A stretch of 26,331 nt of DNA from a virus: positions 1 through 26,331 of IMG/VR virus record IMGVR_UViG_3300025131_000360; one strand, given 5' to 3'. The position numbers were made by a program, and so were the translations under genes. Positions 13,557 to 21,420 of this stretch are shown piece by piece (within the stretch, counting starts at the first letter, position 1; each line of letters starts with the position of its first letter). Under the pieces are notes generated by a model. The model was not told where the DNA came from, did no database searches, and saw nothing but the letters and a program-made list of their open reading frames with translations.

Positions 13557-14276
13557 CTAGCTCCCAAAAAACACGCCCGCATCAGATTTTGGTGATCCAT
13601 AGCTACCACCAAAAATATGAGGGTCTAATTCCACCACATCCGTTGTATTTGTCCTTAAAAACGTTCGTAAATCGGCTCTCTCTCTAAATGCAAGCGCCTC
13701 GAATTTTTGTTGGTTCTGTAAGTCATCATCCTTTTGATAAAAAAGAACAGCTGCCTCATATACAATTAATAGGTCATAATCAACGGGCAATTCAGTTGCA
13801 TCATCATCGTCTGAAAGTGTTGATGGTGGACCGATACCATAAATCTTTATCGCTCCTGTTGCTGTCCTATCAAAATACTTATTAAAGATTAAAGAGGTTC
13901 CTCTAACATCATAATAACTAGGGTTACCTGTATTAGATGTATCGAAGAAATTATTAGAAGATTCTAATTCTATCATTCTCTTCAGAGGTTTTTGCCTTAA
14001 CTCAAAAATACTGCCTGAAGAATACTGATAATAAACCAGCTCAGGAACAAAAATGCCAGAAGGAATAGAAACAGTATTTGAACCAGCATTAATATTAACT
14101 GCACTAACAGTTGCTGAATATAATTCATGAGGCCTATCCTTCCGGACAATTTTTCTGATACCTTGGTTAATATAAGTATTTAATATTGCCGAAGAAGGGT
14201 CGCTAGAGGCTGATGTCTCCCCAGAGTCTATTTGATTTTCTAATAAACTTCTAATTGTAGATAACTCACTACCCAT
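13557..14276 (-). CDS. head-tail adaptor (tubular-A-like) protein
   Basis: A 239-residue protein. The opening (TIRSLLENQID, then LNTYINQGIRKIVRKDRP) and the later section PVDYDLLIVYEAAVLFYQKDD followed by a charged helix (ERADLRTFLRTN) match the layout of podovirus adaptor proteins that bind below the portal: N-terminal helices, a beta-rich middle with SIPSGIFVPELVYYQY and YYDVRGTSLIF, and C-terminal helices. The ATG has GGAGGG upstream. The nozzle-like gene follows after 3 bases, the normal neighbour. The SU10-like or T7 gp11-like assignment is by recall of pattern and gene order. Confidence 0.75.
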   Translation of the reverse strand: MGSELSTIRSLLENQIDSGETSASSDPSSAILNTYINQGIRKIVRKDRPHELYSATVSAVNINAGSNTVSIPSGIFVPELVYYQYSSGSIFELRQKPLKRMIELESSNNFFDTSNTGNPSYYDVRGTSLIFNKYFDRTATGAIKIYGIGPPSTLSDDDDATELPVDYDLLIVYEAAVLFYQKDDDLQNQQKFEALAFRERADLRTFLRTNTTDVVELDPHIFGGSYGSPKSDAGVFFGS

Positions 14277-14294: not shown

Positions 14295-14600
14295 TTATAC
14301 AATTCTAACCCTATATTTTGTGTCTGCTACGTGCGTTATTTTTAGCTTTGCAATACTCAATCCCCGCAACGAATCTGTGTCCGTCGTCGGTAAATAGATT
14401 GCACTTCCATAATTTGTTCCATCAAAGCTAATTTGATAATACAAGTCCCCTGCCCCGTAATTGTCTATATACCCATCTATTCCGTTCCTTAACAATGTTC
14501 CAACGACATCTAAAGTTACCGGAGAATCACCACTAACAAAAGACGTGTCATAAGCACTGAATATTTTTTGTTTGGGTTCATCATAAATGTCTATTGCCAT
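14295..14600 (-). CDS. small beta-rich virion-associated protein, unknown
   Basis: A 101-residue protein of predicted beta strands (SPVTLDVVGTLL, GDLYYQISFDG, SIAKLKITHVADTKYRVRIV) with no signal or membrane segment. It could be a capsid decoration or tail-completion protein; position supports a virion role only. The ATG at 14600 has no good ribosome site (GTGAG at best). It lies about 15 bases past the T-tract of the terminator at 14615-14648. A 16-codon reading frame that starts with TTG in the terminator loop (14641) and has AGGAG 7 bases upstream ends at 14591, just inside this gene. Translation might therefore be coupled to that short frame. Confidence 0.7.
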   Translation of the reverse strand: MAIDIYDEPKQKIFSAYDTSFVSGDSPVTLDVVGTLLRNGIDGYIDNYGAGDLYYQISFDGTNYGSAIYLPTTDTDSLRGLSIAKLKITHVADTKYRVRIV

Positions 14601-14614
14601 TTTTTCTCACTTAT

Positions 14615-14648
14615 AAAATACAAAAAGCCAGCTACAAACAAGCTGGCT
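14615..14648 (-). terminator. rho-independent terminator ending the sugar cassette
   Basis: On the minus strand the perfect 8-bp stem AGCCAGCT / AGCTGGCT (14648-14641 and 14633-14626) has a 7-base loop and is followed directly by TTTTTGTATTTT. It lies 57 bases past the last cassette gene. It would also sit upstream of the tail genes, so they need read-through, antitermination or another promoter. Confidence 0.85.
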
Positions 14649-14704
14649 CTCCTAAAAAGGTTTTAAGTTAGGCTCTTATATATAAATATAGATACGTCCA
14701 TACT

Positions 14705-14713
14705 ATTATAACA
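14705..14713 (-). promoter_or_regulatory. possible extended -10 promoter at the cassette end
   Basis: Minus strand TGTTATAAT (14713-14705) overlaps the stop codon of the last glycosyltransferase. The best -35 is TTGTAT at 16 bases, a poor match. A start near 14698 would put the terminator about 50 bases downstream, an attenuator-like layout. The pattern also occurs by chance in genes, so confidence is low. Confidence 0.3.
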
Positions 14714-15851
14714 GACTTTTAAGAAAATACAAAAGTTTTCGGGTCTCAGTATGAAGACTATAGTATGTTATACACTGTTTACTTAACTTCATCTTCGATT
14801 TATTAGGCTGGCTTTTAGTCTCTAAATGAGATTTTAGGCCGCCTCCTATCCCCAAATCGTTGTCAGATATAAATTCAGTGAAAGCATTCCTCCAACTCTT
14901 GATCGAATTATCGACCAACCAAATACCGCCTTTTGTTTTTCTGTAAGGCTCAACATCACTTGCAAGCAAAGGAACATCAAGACTACTCCACTCGATCCAC
15001 TTCAAATTGCTTTTGCATCTGTTGAATTCACTATCGCATAACGGCGCTAAGGCTAAATCGAGGTCCATATCATATAATTGCTGAGGATATTCCGTCATGT
15101 TCCAGTTAACAGATTTAAAATCAATTTGAGGGTGCTTCTTTAGAAAAGAAGGGCGGTATCCACCATACCTAATAATAAATTTAACATGAATATTGTTATC
15201 TAAGAGCGGGAGAAGTGCCCTATAAGAAATTCTTAAATCATCGTCATGCGCACCCCCGCCCACATAACCAATTCTAATACCGTCGTGGCTAAGTTTCTTC
15301 TTATCCACTTTCCATGTACCTCTATTGATACAGTTAGGTGCAATATGAAGAGGCTTTTCACCGACATGAAGAGGCGTACCCGACGTTAAAACTGGGCGAA
15401 TAGATTTAGCTAAATACTCTGTGCTACATATAACAGCATCCGAACGATACAAATGCTCTGCACTCCATCTATGTTGGTCAGTCCAAGTATAAGGAGAGCT
15501 AGGACTGACCTCCCCTAAACTGTCATCGATCTCAGCGACCGTTTTTACTTTTGGGAACTCTCGTTTAAACTCTTCTATAAGAGCAATAGCCGCCAAGCTA
15601 TGAAATCGCTGAAAAATGATAATATCAAAGAATTTGAACGCACTCCTTAACTTTCTTTGAATTTTATCGCTTATTTCGCCATAACCCACGCACATACTTG
15701 GCCACGATACATGAAGAGGCAAGATATCCTCAAAGTATTCAACATTAACAGTAGCCGAAGCCTTCATCCTGACCATTTGTTCCGCATAATTCTCGATTCG
15801 CCAATAGGCCACACCAAGATTTAGTGTGTTCACATATAATATTTTTATCAT
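14706..15851 (-). CDS. GT4-like glycosyltransferase (GT-B fold)
   Basis: A 381-residue protein. I placed the start at the ATG at 15851 (MIKILYVNTLNLGVAYWR), which has AAAGGA 5 bases upstream and overlaps the methyltransferase stop as ATGA; the open frame extends 11 codons further. The N-terminal domain ends around residue 190. The C-terminal domain has RIGYVGGGAHDDDL (the nucleotide-sugar domain glycine loop) and the segment LKWIEWSSLDVPLLASDVEPY, where the first Glu of a GT4-type E-x7-E-like region would lie. These are typical of retaining glycosyltransferases that use nucleotide sugars. It is the last gene of the cassette, followed by a terminator. Its acceptor is unknown. Confidence 0.8.
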   Translation of the reverse strand: MIKILYVNTLNLGVAYWRIENYAEQMVRMKASATVNVEYFEDILPLHVSWPSMCVGYGEISDKIQRKLRSAFKFFDIIIFQRFHSLAAIALIEEFKREFPKVKTVAEIDDSLGEVSPSSPYTWTDQHRWSAEHLYRSDAVICSTEYLAKSIRPVLTSGTPLHVGEKPLHIAPNCINRGTWKVDKKKLSHDGIRIGYVGGGAHDDDLRISYRALLPLLDNNIHVKFIIRYGGYRPSFLKKHPQIDFKSVNWNMTEYPQQLYDMDLDLALAPLCDSEFNRCKSNLKWIEWSSLDVPLLASDVEPYRKTKGGIWLVDNSIKSWRNAFTEFISDNDLGIGGGLKSHLETKSQPNKSKMKLSKQCITYYSLHTETRKLLYFLKSLL

Positions 15852-16525
15852 TCTTTTTCCTTTACCGCTGTAATACCAACCCATTGGGGCGGAAATATAT
15901 GATTATTCTCTGAGTCAAGGCCTATAGGTTTGATGCCCTCACTAATACAAAAATGATCGATATAAGGTATCTCGACAATAGTTGCCTTGTCCTTCTTGAA
16001 ACAGCTATAGATTAACGTATTAAGTATCTCTAATGTAAAGTTCTGGTGATGGTAATCACCAAGCTTCTCCTCACACATAAAAGAAGATGGATGAGGGACA
16101 GTGATGATATACTTTCCGCCGGGTTTTAACACCCTATACGCTTCCTTAACCGCTGGAAACGGGTCATAAAGGTGTTCAAGGACTTCCCCACACATAACAA
16201 CATCAAAAAAATCAGACTTATACCTAGATAAATCCTCCGCCTCGCCCTGCTCCGCATATATACCTCTCCTCTTTGCTTTCTCTACTAAAGTATCGACTAA
16301 ATCAATACCATTAACGTGACAATCTTTACTTAATAAATGGACACCTAAAGAACCGCCGTTACAACCCACATCTAATACCTTCGATGACTCTGGCACCTGG
16401 TCAACAAAATAACGAATCCTATTATAATGACTCTGGTACGGGTTCCCATACTGCTTTAGAACACCGTCTGACCTATAATTATCTATATGCGAAGCCTGGG
16501 CCTCGTCTTTACTTTTGAACCTCAT
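15848..16525 (-). CDS. SAM-dependent class I methyltransferase
   Basis: A 225-residue protein with the class I methyltransferase motifs: motif I VLDVGCNGGSLG (about residues 44-55), motif II acidic VNGIDLVD, the region FDVVMCGEVLEHL, and the post-motif YRVLKPGGKYIITVPHPSSF. This is the UbiE/type 11 layout common in genes for O-antigen or glycan methylation. The start overlaps the epimerase stop (ATGA), with no separate ribosome site needed. Lying among glycosyltransferases, it probably methylates a sugar in the glycan the cassette makes, for instance as a chain-end modification (inference). The target atom cannot be read from the sequence. Confidence 0.88.
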   Translation of the reverse strand: MRFKSKDEAQASHIDNYRSDGVLKQYGNPYQSHYNRIRYFVDQVPESSKVLDVGCNGGSLGVHLLSKDCHVNGIDLVDTLVEKAKRRGIYAEQGEAEDLSRYKSDFFDVVMCGEVLEHLYDPFPAVKEAYRVLKPGGKYIITVPHPSSFMCEEKLGDYHHQNFTLEILNTLIYSCFKKDKATIVEIPYIDHFCISEGIKPIGLDSENNHIFPPQWVGITAVKEKE

Positions 16526-17433
16526 GTCTCATCCCCTCTTAACTTATCTAAAACATCCTCTATCTTTGTCTGGCAAAATACATTTTCACCACTACTATTC
16601 AAATCTTGCTCTTTAAAATCTCTGGGGTCCTCGTCTATAACTTCGTACTCATTTCCAAACAACTTTAGTAAATACTCAAGGCTATACTCATGCTTTCCTA
16701 ATGCATTTACAATGGAGGCATAACCCCTATCGGCCGTCGATATAAGTATATCTATCAAGTCCTCAACATAAGTAAACCTTCTTCTTATATTAGCGGGATT
16801 TCCATTAACCATTATTTTTTTACCAGATATCAATTTACTTATAAACATATCTGGCCTTCCAAGCTCCCCATAAACTGTAAAGGGCCTTACTATACTAATA
16901 TGGGCACCTCTTAGCCAAGAGAGATACTCTGGGAACCTATCTTGTTCTTCGTGAAAGTCTAAAATACTTTGTTCGGCCATTTTTTTGGATAATGAATAAG
17001 GGGTTTCAACATCTCCTAGAACAGAGGAAGAGCTAACATATATATAACTCATGTAATTTTCATGATTATCTGCACGTATATTCCTAAGATGCTTCTTTAA
17101 CTCATTTACGTTGTTTTTAATATAATCAAGAGGATCTCTATTACCCCTAATCCCCGCATATGAACCTAAATGAAAAACATAATTATAACTATTATGACTA
17201 TAACCACCACGCCATACGCCTCTTTCAAAACCGCCTAGCCATTCCAAGGGTAACGACTCCGGTAATCCCTCCTTTCTCTTCCTTATAACTTCTTCAGAAG
17301 GGTTTCCCGTAGGCTCACCAATATCATAGATATCAAGGTCCGTAACACCCATCTTCAACAACCTTTTGCATAACCATGAACCAATGAACCCGTGCCCCCC
17401 TATGACAAGGACCTTAGAATCTTTATTTATCAT
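16522..17433 (-). CDS. NAD-dependent sugar epimerase/dehydratase (extended SDR)
   Basis: A 303-residue protein. The N-terminal NAD-binding loop is GGHGFIGSW (about residues 12-20). The catalytic YSLSK (Tyr-x-x-x-Lys) follows a Ser-rich strand YIYVSSSSVLGD. The later segments SIVRPFTVYGELGRPDMFI and RRFTYVEDLIDIL match the substrate-binding part of NAD-dependent nucleotide-sugar epimerases and dehydratases. These enzymes convert one nucleotide sugar to another, supplying substrates for the neighbouring transferases. The exact reaction cannot be told. It overlaps both neighbours by 4 bases. Confidence 0.88.
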   Translation of the reverse strand: MINKDSKVLVIGGHGFIGSWLCKRLLKMGVTDLDIYDIGEPTGNPSEEVIRKRKEGLPESLPLEWLGGFERGVWRGGYSHNSYNYVFHLGSYAGIRGNRDPLDYIKNNVNELKKHLRNIRADNHENYMSYIYVSSSSVLGDVETPYSLSKKMAEQSILDFHEEQDRFPEYLSWLRGAHISIVRPFTVYGELGRPDMFISKLISGKKIMVNGNPANIRRRFTYVEDLIDILISTADRGYASIVNALGKHEYSLEYLLKLFGNEYEVIDEDPRDFKEQDLNSSGENVFCQTKIEDVLDKLRGDET

Positions 17434-18158
17434 AAAGCTACCTTAATTCCATAGTCTTCATACTTTTTCTGCTTAAGTTTCTTTGCTTCCTCCTTATTTC
17501 GGTTAGTGTTACCCTCTATTTTCTCCATTAACGGGTCTTGGCAGCCTCCAAACAAGTACCCTTTTTTATGGGCATCTAAAAGAAAAAATTCGTACAAGTC
17601 TGTCTCGATTGAGTCTTCATGATACTTAATTTCATTTGCAACCGACTTTCGATAAGCAATAGTTGGATGAGAGATAGGGCACTTAGAATTAAAATCCCAT
17701 TCGAACGCACCCATATAATCACGCTCCCAAGGCTTATCAGCATCCTTCAAGTCTAGTCCTGAATAAAAAATACTTTTATCTGGGTTCTTTTCAAAGAACT
17801 CACTTATAGCACTACTTCGCTTTGAATCATATATATCTGCATCACAGACCGCTATGATTTCCCCTGTAGCCATGAGGTTCCCGATATTTCGACAATATGC
17901 GGCACCTTTACGGGCAAAGTTATCTATAATGCATCTCTGTGACCTTGTCTTTCCATCTTTATTATAGGTTGTAAATCCGTTGCTCTTAGATAACGCTTCC
18001 TCGTGATGTTTTAAAATATCTCTTGTGAAATCTGTTGACGCATCGTTAATAACTATTATTTCATAAGGCGATATCTCTTGAGAGAGAATTGATTTTAAGC
18101 ACTGGTTTATTGTGTTTTGACTATTAAAAACTGGCAATACATAACTTATCTTCATCAT
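17430..18158 (-). CDS. GT2-family glycosyltransferase (GT-A fold)
   Basis: A 242-residue protein. The opening ISYVLPVFNSQNTINQCLKS and the segment EIIVINDASTDFTRDIL are the standard GT2 N-terminus. VCDADIYD carries the DxD motif that binds a metal and nucleotide sugar, and ARKGAAYCRNIGN precedes it as usual. No membrane helix is seen, so it is soluble. It starts with two consecutive ATG codons overlapping the stop of the upstream two-domain transferase. The likely role is one sugar-addition step in the glycan encoded by the cassette. Confidence 0.88.
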   Translation of the reverse strand: MMKISYVLPVFNSQNTINQCLKSILSQEISPYEIIVINDASTDFTRDILKHHEEALSKSNGFTTYNKDGKTRSQRCIIDNFARKGAAYCRNIGNLMATGEIIAVCDADIYDSKRSSAISEFFEKNPDKSIFYSGLDLKDADKPWERDYMGAFEWDFNSKCPISHPTIAYRKSVANEIKYHEDSIETDLYEFFLLDAHKKGYLFGGCQDPLMEKIEGNTNRNKEEAKKLKQKKYEDYGIKVAL

Positions 18159-19801
18159 TTAATTAGACCCTCTATTTTTTCCTTAAAGACATCGACAGAC
18201 ATTAATTCTGAATAATACTCATGTGCCTTCTCACTCAAGTCACTATGTTCTTTAGCTTTACACTCGCATATCTTTGTAATGAGTTCTGATTTATTGTCCT
18301 CCCATTTCTCCACATCTTCAAAACTTAACTTATCAGCGAACTTCATTTCTTCGTCTGGGCAACTAACTAACGCCTGACGACCACATAACATGAACTGAAT
18401 AGGTAGCTGAGGGAAACCATCATGAACCGTTGCTCTGACAACCATACTACATTCATTTATGAATTTAACCATCTTGTCTTCTGGTATTCGTCCACAGAAC
18501 TCTATGTTATCTTTTTCATCGTACATCTTATCGATACCAAAGAATTTAAAATTAATGTGAGGTAAAGCTTTTGCAACCTCCATGATTAAGGGTATATTAC
18601 TTAAACCACCAGCGCCGTCTAACTTATGGGCCTTATTTGAATCAGAAATATAAACCCCGACGGTGAATGTCTTTGGTAAAGCACTCCCTATATATTTCTC
18701 TATTTGATAGATAGGGGTAAACACGAGCTCGGTATCAAGCCCGCATTCCTTCATCTCTGCTTTACATCGAGAACTATTGGTTAATAGTATCGCGTCTTGG
18801 ACATCGAACATCTTCTTCATATGCTTTAATAGCGAAATAGAGTGGTTGTTATACATCGTGAAAACGTCAGAGCCAATGAAATGATATATAGGTCTACCCA
18901 CAATACTTGTCATATGATTGGACAAAGCATCTATAGATTCATTATAACACCCAACCATATACGTGTGCTTCCATCCTGGAAAATTATAGTTTGAAGGGAA
19001 CATCATTCTACTACTACCATTTCCCATCCCAACGTAGTCCGTACCAAGCATTTTTGCCCTCTGTATTGCCTGTAAAGGCGCTCCCCAAGTCGAGGTAACC
19101 ATGTTCTTATCCTCTATCCCATAATACTTTCTAAATTCAGCACACTTTATTGATAACGTTAACCCCTGTGATCCTGAAATACTTTCCTCTGTCGGGCTCT
19201 TTGTCGAACAAACAAAATATTTATCACCAAGGTAACTACCCTTATATCCCTTTTTTGCTAACTTATAAAACAAGCCCCAATCTTGAAAATATTTACGGTT
19301 ATCAAATCCGCCTACAGATTCAAAAGCCTTCCTCTTAATAGGGCTCATTGTTGGGATATAGTTCATCGTCTCTAATAGAAAAGGGTCAAATTCCTGACTA
19401 ATAAATGCCGGCTTATCTATTTCAAACCTATAATTCCCATAACAGAAATCTATTGATGAATCTAATTCGAACCTAGTATTAAATTCATGCAATATACCAG
19501 GCATCAACTTACAATCTGCATCTATAAAGAATAATATGGACTCGTTGCTCTCGTCTGAATCTCTTGAAATAGATGCGCCTAGATTCCTTGCCGCCGATGC
19601 ACCCGAATTCTCCTTTATTAGCTCAAGAGTAAATGAATACTCATTAGTAAAGGACATAAGTAACTCTTCTGCTTTTTTATCGTGCCCGTCTATGACAACG
19701 GTGACATCATAGTCTTTATGGTCTTGGTCTGCTATCGAAAGTAATAGCGCTTCAATCGTATCGTAATTTTTATAAAAAGGGATAACTATATTAAACTTCA
19801 T
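18155..19801 (-). CDS. two-domain glycosyltransferase, GT2 plus GT-B-like
   Basis: A 548-residue protein. Residues 1-215 are a GT2 domain: FNIVIPFYKNYDTIEALLLS opening, then GASAARNLGAS, a DxD in FFIDADCKL (about 114-122), and GGFDNRKYFQDWGLFYKLAK, the acceptor-side segment. Residues about 270-548 are a second, GT-B-like domain: KTFTVGVYISD, then FKFFGIDKMYDEKDNIEFCGRI, and VRATVHDGFPQLPIQFMLCG, a GT4-like donor-site pattern. A natural fusion of two transferases suggests it adds two sugars in sequence, or that the C-terminal part has a targeting role. It overlaps both neighbours by 4 bases. The exact linkage is unknown. Confidence 0.85.
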   Translation of the reverse strand: MKFNIVIPFYKNYDTIEALLLSIADQDHKDYDVTVVIDGHDKKAEELLMSFTNEYSFTLELIKENSGASAARNLGASISRDSDESNESILFFIDADCKLMPGILHEFNTRFELDSSIDFCYGNYRFEIDKPAFISQEFDPFLLETMNYIPTMSPIKRKAFESVGGFDNRKYFQDWGLFYKLAKKGYKGSYLGDKYFVCSTKSPTEESISGSQGLTLSIKCAEFRKYYGIEDKNMVTSTWGAPLQAIQRAKMLGTDYVGMGNGSSRMMFPSNYNFPGWKHTYMVGCYNESIDALSNHMTSIVGRPIYHFIGSDVFTMYNNHSISLLKHMKKMFDVQDAILLTNSSRCKAEMKECGLDTELVFTPIYQIEKYIGSALPKTFTVGVYISDSNKAHKLDGAGGLSNIPLIMEVAKALPHINFKFFGIDKMYDEKDNIEFCGRIPEDKMVKFINECSMVVRATVHDGFPQLPIQFMLCGRQALVSCPDEEMKFADKLSFEDVEKWEDNKSELITKICECKAKEHSDLSEKAHEYYSELMSVDVFKEKIEGLIK

Positions 19802-20160
19802 TTTGCCCCTTTGAATTGCTCATAGACCTGAATCAATTTCTCCATCCCAAATCCAGCAATCTTTTTTGACTTGGCCGCCCTACTAAACACATCCATAACG
19901 AGCTTGTAATCGTCATTATCTAACTCTAAATACTCCTTAGCCTCAGAACTCTTCTTTATAAGGCCAACATAATTAACCATATCTTCAATATCATCCCATT
20001 CAACAACATTTTTGATCTGCCTTAATATATTTAAGGTTTGATTATCGTTGCTTTCTAGCAACTCTTCTAATGTGATATCGGGGTCTTTCTGAAGGTTCCA
20101 CTGTTTAGTTAATTCATCTCTCTCTTCTTTGGTTATCCTAACTATTTTTGTCTTTTTCAT
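19798..20160 (-). CDS. small acidic protein at the head of the glycan cassette
   Basis: A 120-residue, charged, mainly helical protein with no membrane segment or recognised motif. A basic start (MKKTKIVRITKEERD) is followed by acidic segments (ITLEELLESNDNQ, VVEWDDIEDMV, LELDNDDYK) and a basic end. GAGG lies 6 bases before the ATG at 20160. It is the first gene after the double-hairpin leader, and its stop overlaps the start of the two-domain transferase as ATGA, so it is translated together with the sugar enzymes. It could be a regulator, a chaperone or an acceptor-side factor, but nothing in the sequence decides. No relation to known glycan genes is visible. Confidence 0.7.
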   Translation of the reverse strand: MKKTKIVRITKEERDELTKQWNLQKDPDITLEELLESNDNQTLNILRQIKNVVEWDDIEDMVNYVGLIKKSSEAKEYLELDNDDYKLVMDVFSRAAKSKKIAGFGMEKLIQVYEQFKGAK

Positions 20161-20193
20161 ATACCGCCTCTTTTTTTCTCAAGCCTATTCCAA

Positions 20194-20236
20194 TTGAGGT
20201 AAGGACACGTAGGGGAAAGTAAGCGCCTTACCTCAA
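20194..20236 (-). ncRNA. leader hairpin 2, 11-bp stem
   Basis: A perfect 11-bp stem (20194-20204 with 20226-20236) has a 21-base loop and no T-tract. Part of the same sequence can also form a tighter GTAAG/CTTAC hairpin (20219-20223 with 20227-20231), so two exclusive folds exist. It lies about 25 bases before the ribosome site of the first cassette gene. Confidence 0.6.
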
Positions 20237-20240
20237 GAGT

Positions 20241-20288
20241 ACCAGGGAAACTAATCAGACCCGGCTAGACCTTTTTAGTTTCCCTGGT
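20241..20288 (-). ncRNA. leader hairpin 1, 14-bp stem
   Basis: A perfect 14-bp stem (ACCAGGGAAACTAA at the promoter side, 20288-20275, with 20254-20241) has a 20-base loop and no T-tract on either strand. The predicted transcript start from the promoter at 20296-20324 falls at or one base from its first base. Confidence 0.7.
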
Positions 20289-20295
20289 GACAATC

Positions 20296-20324
20296 AATAT
20301 AGCATTTTTGGCGATATTTAACAA
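20296..20324 (-). promoter_or_regulatory. candidate promoter of the glycan cassette
   Basis: On the minus strand TTGTTA (20324-20319), a 17-base spacer and TATATT (20301-20296), with TGC directly before the -10 (extended form). It lies 14 bases past the capsid stop. The expected start at 20289-20288 coincides with the first base of hairpin 1. Confidence 0.5.
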
Positions 20325-20337
20325 CCAAAAAAGCTAT

Positions 20338-21420
20338 TTATGTCCCTGTCGTCCAGATCCAGATACCAGCAGATTTGTTAAGCACTTTTGCTACTGCCGT
20401 AATACTGAAAGCGGCTTGTTTCTTCTTATTGGTCGGGTCACTAACCGTTGTAGGCCCAGACTGTTTAAGGAAGAACTGGAATCCCTTGGCTCCGCCCTCA
20501 CCTGAAACCTCTGAACATCCGTAAGCCTCATCACCGAACAGTAAGCTACCATACACGTTACCTGAAGAGGTAGACAATGTATCACCACTAATTGGGAATT
20601 TCAATCCCAATGTAGAAGTCTGAATACTTGCACCTGCAACGATATCACGTCGTATCGGGCTAGTTTTCATTGCTTCGCTAGATGTGGGCGATGTCCATCC
20701 CTTGAACCCGGCGGATGTAGTTACTTGGTATGCAACATCAGGGTGACATATCAAGCGGAAATTACCGTCTGATAATGGCGGTACGTCGTTACCTGCTAAT
20801 ACTCTAACGCCATGCTGGATAGTTTTCACAGTCATTCCACTTGCGGCAAGAGAAGTTACAAGCGCAGACTGACCTACACGAGTCTTGTTGTGATACATTG
20901 GAAAGCCGTCGCTTCTGTGTGTCCAGAACCTAACAGTTATACCAGAGTGATTCAACGTTCCGCCATCTATGTTCATATTATCAAACATGTTAGCGGAATA
21001 AACGGCCTTATCTGCAATGGCAACCCCGATATCGTTTCTGCAAAGCTTGTCTAATGTTTTAGCGGCTGCAAATTTAATCTTCTCTGCGGCTCTGTCTAAC
21101 GCTCGGCCACGTGCAGTCAACACAGTATATCGTGATAGCTGTATATACCCGTCCCTCTCATGGAGGGTGGCTGTGACGCTCTGGGCGCTCAAAAATAGCT
21201 GCTGCGCTGTAAATTCGTCTGTATCGTCTTTATATAAAGCATCAACTTTTTTATAGCGGTCAAAATTGATTGTCTTTCCACCAGCAACTGGGATTGGTTC
21301 TTTTACGGGCGCGGCCTCATAGAAAACTGTAGATGCCTCAAAGTCTTGTAGAATCTTCTTGCTATAAAATGTCCCCACCACAGCGGTTATCGCTGCATGA
21401 TCTGATTGTTGGTCCGCCAT
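20338..21420 (-). CDS. major capsid protein, N4-gp56-like
   Basis: A 360-residue protein. The N-terminal motif TFYSKKILQDFEASTVFYEA, followed by PIPVAGGKTINFDRYKKVDAL and later the segment LDKLCRNDIG, is the pattern of the N4-gp56 family of HK97-fold major capsid proteins. Helical segments AAEKIKFAAAKTLDKL would form the spine helix. The C-terminal half has the peripheral beta-rich region (FRLICHPDVAYQVTTS, GASIQTSTLGLKFPI). AAGGAG precedes the ATG. The gene follows the scaffold-like gene directly, with no protease gene between, as in other phages with this capsid type. It would form the shell, and is followed by the glycan cassette rather than by the adaptor. Confidence 0.88.
   Translation of the reverse strand: MADQQSDHAAITAVVGTFYSKKILQDFEASTVFYEAAPVKEPIPVAGGKTINFDRYKKVDALYKDDTDEFTAQQLFLSAQSVTATLHERDGYIQLSRYTVLTARGRALDRAAEKIKFAAAKTLDKLCRNDIGVAIADKAVYSANMFDNMNIDGGTLNHSGITVRFWTHRSDGFPMYHNKTRVGQSALVTSLAASGMTVKTIQHGVRVLAGNDVPPLSDGNFRLICHPDVAYQVTTSAGFKGWTSPTSSEAMKTSPIRRDIVAGASIQTSTLGLKFPISGDTLSTSSGNVYGSLLFGDEAYGCSEVSGEGGAKGFQFFLKQSGPTTVSDPTNKKKQAAFSITAVAKVLNKSAGIWIWTTGT

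Follow-up and report, generated by a model that had tools for sequence, protein, structure and literature searches.

Glycosylation of virions by phage enzymes has been described for the mycobacteriophages Che8, Corndog and Myrna, whose own transferases glycosylate capsid and tail-tube proteins and thereby protect the virions against antibodies (Freeman et al. 2023, as cited in passages of PMC12363180, PMC11256854 and PMC12619734). In Maravista, a relative of Che8, the transferase genes lie close to the genome's 3' end according to a passage of PMC11256854. As a kind of system, virion glycosylation is therefore already known. The locus described here is a six-gene cassette in a 26,331-base virus record (IMGVR_UViG_3300025131_000360; its whole length is called the window below), and it shares phage-encoded transferases with those mycobacteriophages. 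As far as those passages describe them, however, it differs in its framework of four glycosyltransferase (GT) domains and a methyltransferase, which is capsid-linked, belongs to the core genes of its lineage and holds a variable slot for nucleotide-sugar enzymes. We found no description in the open literature, including for podoviruses, of a capsid-linked core framework with a changing sugar-editing slot, and the arrangement seems to be new. We consider it rather probable that a podovirus-like lineage inherits the cassette vertically and uses it late in infection to build a glycan, short and methylated, on one of the virion proteins.

Two further systems invite comparison. The GtrABC/GtrB modules of O-antigen conversion (PHROG 841 and others) resemble the locus in the N-terminal GT-A domain of one of its transferases, GT3, whereas here there is no GtrA flippase (among 14 records searched), GT3 lacks the membrane segments of GtrB, and a link to lysogeny is not found throughout. 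In Podoviridae sp. ctQWt234 (MW202801, Manatee Spring), glycan genes also lie between the major capsid protein (MCP) gene and a stabilization protein gene, with a homologue of the cassette's GT6 in last place, but the middle enzymes there are radical SAM, PhyH, methyltransferase and NodB-like proteins, and the MCP is 23% identical.

The late region of the window lies entirely on the minus strand and runs from terminase through portal (phrog_332), scaffold, MCP (phrog_1357), the cassette, a small gene (g14295) and an SU10-type adaptor to the tail genes and fibre. The cassette, in the interval between MCP and adaptor, consists of the following genes, in order of transcription:

19798–20160, minus strand: u1, 120 amino acids, first gene of the co-translated run
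18155–19801, minus strand: GT2, bifunctional glycosyltransferase, GT-A (residues 1-231) plus GT-B (231-548), PF00535 2.2e-13
17430–18158, minus strand: GT3, GT-A family 2 transferase, PF00535 6e-20
16522–17433, minus strand: EPI4, NAD-dependent sugar epimerase/dehydratase (extended SDR), PF01370 1.7e-19, in the variable slot
15848–16525, minus strand: MT5, S-adenosylmethionine-dependent methyltransferase, PF08241 3.2e-19
14706–15851, minus strand: GT6, GT-B fold glycosyltransferase, phrog_7162 3.4e-25

Functionally, the enzyme classes given in a preliminary description of this DNA (two glycosyltransferases, one fused transferase, a sugar epimerase and a methyltransferase) agree across Pfam, NCBIfam, PHROGs and structure models. 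The predicted model of GT2 (pLDDT 89) comprises a complete GT-A domain fused to a complete GT-B domain, with structural alignments at Z 23 both to the chondroitin polymerase K4CP (residues 1-272) and to the GT4-type enzyme BaBshA (residues 230-548); sequence profiles liken residues 3-200 to chondroitin synthase and residues 428-527 to the WbaZ mannosyltransferase, and D94 and D96 are invariant in 21 sequences. GT3 matches GtrB-type PHROGs over residues 2-80 only, and hydropathy indicated no membrane segment in any of its 23 members. EPI4 contains YxxxK and GxxGxxG, and its PDB matches include sugar-nucleotide epimerases and dehydratases such as 6zlj and 6kv9, while MT5 is the best-conserved framework enzyme in alignments of close relatives. 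For GT6, a model predicted from an alignment of window and relative-locus proteins (pLDDT 84) has a GT-B fold with GT-B enzymes as its Foldseek matches, and the block DxEFNRCKS..K..E is invariant in the alignments. The framework thus comprises four transferase domains, namely the GT-A and GT-B domains of GT2, the GT-A domain of GT3 and the GT-B domain of GT6, together with the methyltransferase MT5; its proteins are predicted to be soluble, with marginal hydropathy segments in the window's GT6 (1.64) and in one GT2. The first gene, u1, had no Pfam, PHROG or NCBIfam match and is poorly conserved, being present in only some of the aligned relatives. A scan of GTDB with the GT2 profile gave partial matches only, and so no bacterial source was found; a nucleotide search of a phage collection gave no match.

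The six genes are joined by five ATGA overlaps:

19798–19801, minus strand: u1/GT2
18155–18158, minus strand: GT2/GT3
17430–17433, minus strand: GT3/EPI4
16522–16525, minus strand: EPI4/MT5
15848–15851, minus strand: MT5/GT6

Overlaps of this −4 type occupy five of five cassette junctions, taking GT6 to start at the internal ATG at 15851 and not at the first ATG of its open reading frame (ORF) at 15884, and are absent from the other junctions of the late operon, about 14 in number (Fisher P = 8.6e-5), and are therefore beyond chance. A Shine-Dalgarno-like sequence precedes every cassette gene, and the GC content of the cassette is near that of the neighbouring genes. The preliminary description's gene count, joins and placement between capsid and adaptor genes were confirmed, and its reading of the genes as a co-translated pathway that edits nucleotide sugars and builds and methylates a glycan is supported.

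To place the cassette among relatives, we scanned for loci with a capsid-protein profile, which is blind to the cassette, and obtained 59 of them, on contigs that are mostly fragments and in some cases near-duplicates of one virus. The cassette directly follows the MCP gene in 32, the adaptor side comes next in 16, the record is truncated in 8, and 3 show another arrangement. One record, L134, was excluded as a likely chimeric contig; its ORF at L134:4189-5714 fuses a uracil-DNA-glycosylase-like start to an apparent capsid-type start. The 16 adaptor-next records resemble a single clade (G001, G006, G007 and G012), of which G001, G007 and G012 cluster in the virion tree as well as in the cassette tree, each time with support 1.0. 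All four of these long-enough clade members carry the cassette at another place in the record, which in G007 is upstream of the packaging genes, so that it has been moved, most simply as a unit, and neither gained nor lost. In each of the four, the slot holds a UDP-sugar dehydrogenase, and the record also has a gene for a GalE-like epimerase, the adjacency of which is not constant. Overall, GT2-GT3-MT5-GT6 is present in every record of the lineage long enough to tell.

Homologues of GT6 also occur further afield. Streptomyces phage Zuko, like the relocated cassette of G007, has a GT6 homologue with a sugar-nucleotide enzyme (an epimerase/dehydrogenase) by the packaging module, upstream of terL, but this is a different phage with two such genes only. 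In Phapecoctavirus nepoznato, one of four adjacent glycosyltransferase genes by primase/helicase (L145:5645-8789) is GT6-homologous.

Evolutionarily, the framework enzymes diverge together with the capsid, roughly as closely as virion proteins do. Pairwise distances correlate with those of the MCP at 0.81 for GT2, 0.77 for GT3, 0.88 for MT5 and 0.89 for GT6, with 0.90 and 0.84 for the adaptor and tail proteins as virion references. The virion and cassette trees have 8 of 16 splits in common; their deep order is not resolved, so that members of the lineage may have exchanged some of these genes.

The slot between GT3 and MT5 differs even among phages whose capsids are 81-83% identical to that of the window. 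It holds EPI4 in the window and in L008 (at 96%), a TylF-type gene in L004, TylF with another methyltransferase in L006, and all three of TylF, EPI4 and a UDP-sugar dehydrogenase in L007, and in several relatives it has no recognised sugar enzyme. More divergent phages (L139, L140 and L109, with capsid identities of 37%, 35% and 23%) and also L061 carry glycan loci directly after the MCP gene with other enzymes; some of these loci include genes for radical SAM, PhyH and polysaccharide deacetylase proteins and for additional GTs. The radical SAM/SPASM genes in two of these loci (L139:14440-15474 and L109:14513-15577) could add a further protein or sugar modification. Small hydrophobic membrane-type proteins, absent from the window's cassette, are encoded inside or beside those of relatives (L004:6772-7017, L007:17343-17558, L006:2349-2681, L020:14238-14693 and L042:11057-11524), and the G014 record has a TylF-type methyltransferase outside the cassette, directly upstream of terminase (L128:181-834).

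The neighbouring genes and the regulatory ends of the cassette are as follows:

20338–21420, minus strand: MCP gene, phrog_1357 (PHROG 1.6e-19), the fixed upstream neighbour
20161–20337, minus strand: intergenic region after the capsid gene, with strong hairpins (stems of 13 bp and 11 bp) and a 9/12 promoter-like match
14622–14652, minus strand: intrinsic-terminator-like hairpin of 12 bp with a T run, after the cassette
14295–14600, minus strand: g14295, small beta-rich virion-like gene, the downstream neighbour of the cassette
13557–14276, minus strand: SU10-type adaptor gene, PF24175 4.1e-17, the downstream boundary

The cassette had been proposed to have its own promoter, structured leader and terminator. 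We initially took the promoter as real, but shuffles placed the match (20324-20296, 9/12) at chance: 28 such matches were found against 25.8 expected in shuffles, 10% of local shuffles reached the same score, and the match is inconsistent across relatives. The structure of the proposed leader is sound, since the hairpin is strong (z −4.9), but its assignment to the cassette is not: hairpins recur after the MCP gene in nearly all relatives, including five in which no cassette follows (L011, L016, L121, L125 and L126), and we therefore rejected the hairpin as a cassette regulator. For the same reason we read it as a probable 3' element of the capsid gene, which may limit read-through or protect the capsid message. 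The terminator holds as a sequence pattern, a hairpin with a T run at 14652-14622, and comparable hairpins follow GT6 in several relatives (L007, L017 and L020).

Mechanistically, we propose that the framework would draw directly on nucleotide sugars in the cytoplasm to build a short glycan and cap it with methyl, with the slot enzyme setting which sugar goes in. The five overlaps would couple translation of the enzymes, the post-capsid hairpin would probably keep them less abundant than the capsid protein, and transfer would take place late in infection, most likely to a capsid, head decoration, head fibre or tail protein. A virion-protein glycan appears the most likely product because of the late position by the MCP gene in most records, the co-divergence with virion genes, the soluble enzymes, and the lack of GtrA, phosphoglycosyltransferase or flippase genes in 14 records; the protein acceptor, virion target, short glycan and expression level are the inferred parts of this explanation. 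Several points weigh against it. The place beside the capsid gene may reflect late timing only, and the relocation in one clade implies that capsid adjacency is not required. Integrases occur in 3 of 13 relatives, which makes lysogenic host-surface roles possible, and GT6 homologues in Phapecoctavirus adjoin replication genes. Host lipid-carrier genes could be borrowed, and because only one relative looks complete, genes missing here may lie elsewhere. Both the glycan and its acceptor are predicted, and the MCP C-termini, inspected for an acceptor motif, have short variable ends such as TTGT, TTKV and STEQV.

Of the two targets left open by the preliminary description, virion or host surface, the former is plausible, whereas for the latter the membrane-export functions searched for were not found. 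Modification of the host surface, in which the O-antigen or capsule is converted so as to block superinfection or renewed adsorption to debris, would agree with the GtrB-type match of the GT3 N-terminus, with the integrases and with the small membrane proteins in some relatives' cassettes. Yet the match ends at residue 80 and GT3 has no GtrB membrane segments, and no GtrA (PF04138; control matches in 7 genomes), phosphoglycosyltransferase (Bac_transf, PF02397; PF00953-type initiators not searched) or Wzx-type flippase (Polysacc_synt, PF01943) was found in 14 records, 13 of which are or may be fragments, with positive controls for the latter two families as well. The late position by the capsid gene also speaks against this explanation, as does the one of 13 records that looks complete: with its 123-bp terminal repeat, this record carries the cassette but no integrase. 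We regard host-surface modification as unlikely. That the glycan or glycoconjugate serves some other purpose, such as on a protein that is injected or secreted, is suggested by signal-peptide-like proteins encoded after GT6 in G008, L020, L042, L037 and L028; the window's g14295 has no such signal, the signal-bearing proteins tested gave no family match, and we hold this role to be quite improbable.

That the transferases decorate modified phage bases with sugars is very improbable in our estimation. Phage glycosyltransferases acting on DNA are known (according to a title cited in PMC12619734), and the GT6 homologues of Phapecoctavirus stand in a run of four GTs beside primase and polymerase genes; on the other side, the cassette sits in the late structural region, and no gene of the thymidylate-synthase/hydroxymethylase family (PF00303) was found in 13 records, including the terminal-repeat record, with controls positive in 9 of 14 genomes. 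A search for Tet/JBP-type oxygenases was uninformative, as no control gave a match. The preliminary description had presented the cassette as an inserted moron, that is, a recently acquired, autonomously transcribed accessory unit. The terminator-like hairpin after it, its presence as a whole at another place in one clade and good post-MCP promoter matches in a few relatives (L017 and L129) would fit such a unit. This reading fails because relatives share GT2-GT3-MT5-GT6 as core genes at the same place: the gene-order comparison that had been suggested finds the framework directly after the MCP gene in 32 records and, where it is missing from that place, at another position in all 4 records that are long enough, so that it is not absent from close relatives, and it co-diverges with the capsid gene. 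The GC content near that of the neighbouring genes and the chance-level promoter match also count against a true moron, an explanation that the comparison by itself largely refutes and to which we give hardly any remaining probability.

If the virion is the target, glycosylation would be a lineage-defining trait of uncultured phages and not a mycobacteriophage rarity, slot turnover would provide a natural series of phages with differing predicted coat glycans, and the role of such glycans outside an animal host would become directly testable. We suggest tentatively, and with more doubt than confidence, that the lineage wears exchangeable coat sugars, in which the conserved capsid-linked framework and its changing slot yield chemically different, serotype-like virion glycans, although these phages have no known immune system to escape; grazing, particle adsorption or host-surface mimicry may be what selects for them.

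Several minor observations concern the surroundings of the locus. A g14295-type gene directly follows the MCP gene in most records of the clade with the relocated cassette. In some other relatives, its place after GT6 is taken by beta-rich, fibre-like proteins with an N-terminal signal-peptide-like segment (judged by eye), which is odd for virion proteins:

L114:5788-6906, L114:6897-9095, L020:16504-18018, L042:13375-15126, L037:7001-7378 and L028:14156-14716: beta-rich signal-peptide-like proteins

In the L121/L125 clade, the terminase large subunit (L121:794-2272, L125:1-706) is encoded on the strand opposite to the portal and capsid genes. Upstream of terminase, L022 has adjacent ORFs of 'NDKEVVLAAVKQ'-type tandem repeats (L022:160-3728), and an otherwise ordinary early region in L115 encodes a minus-strand protein with a long 'NSGNWNSGDG' repeat (L115:2371-3294).

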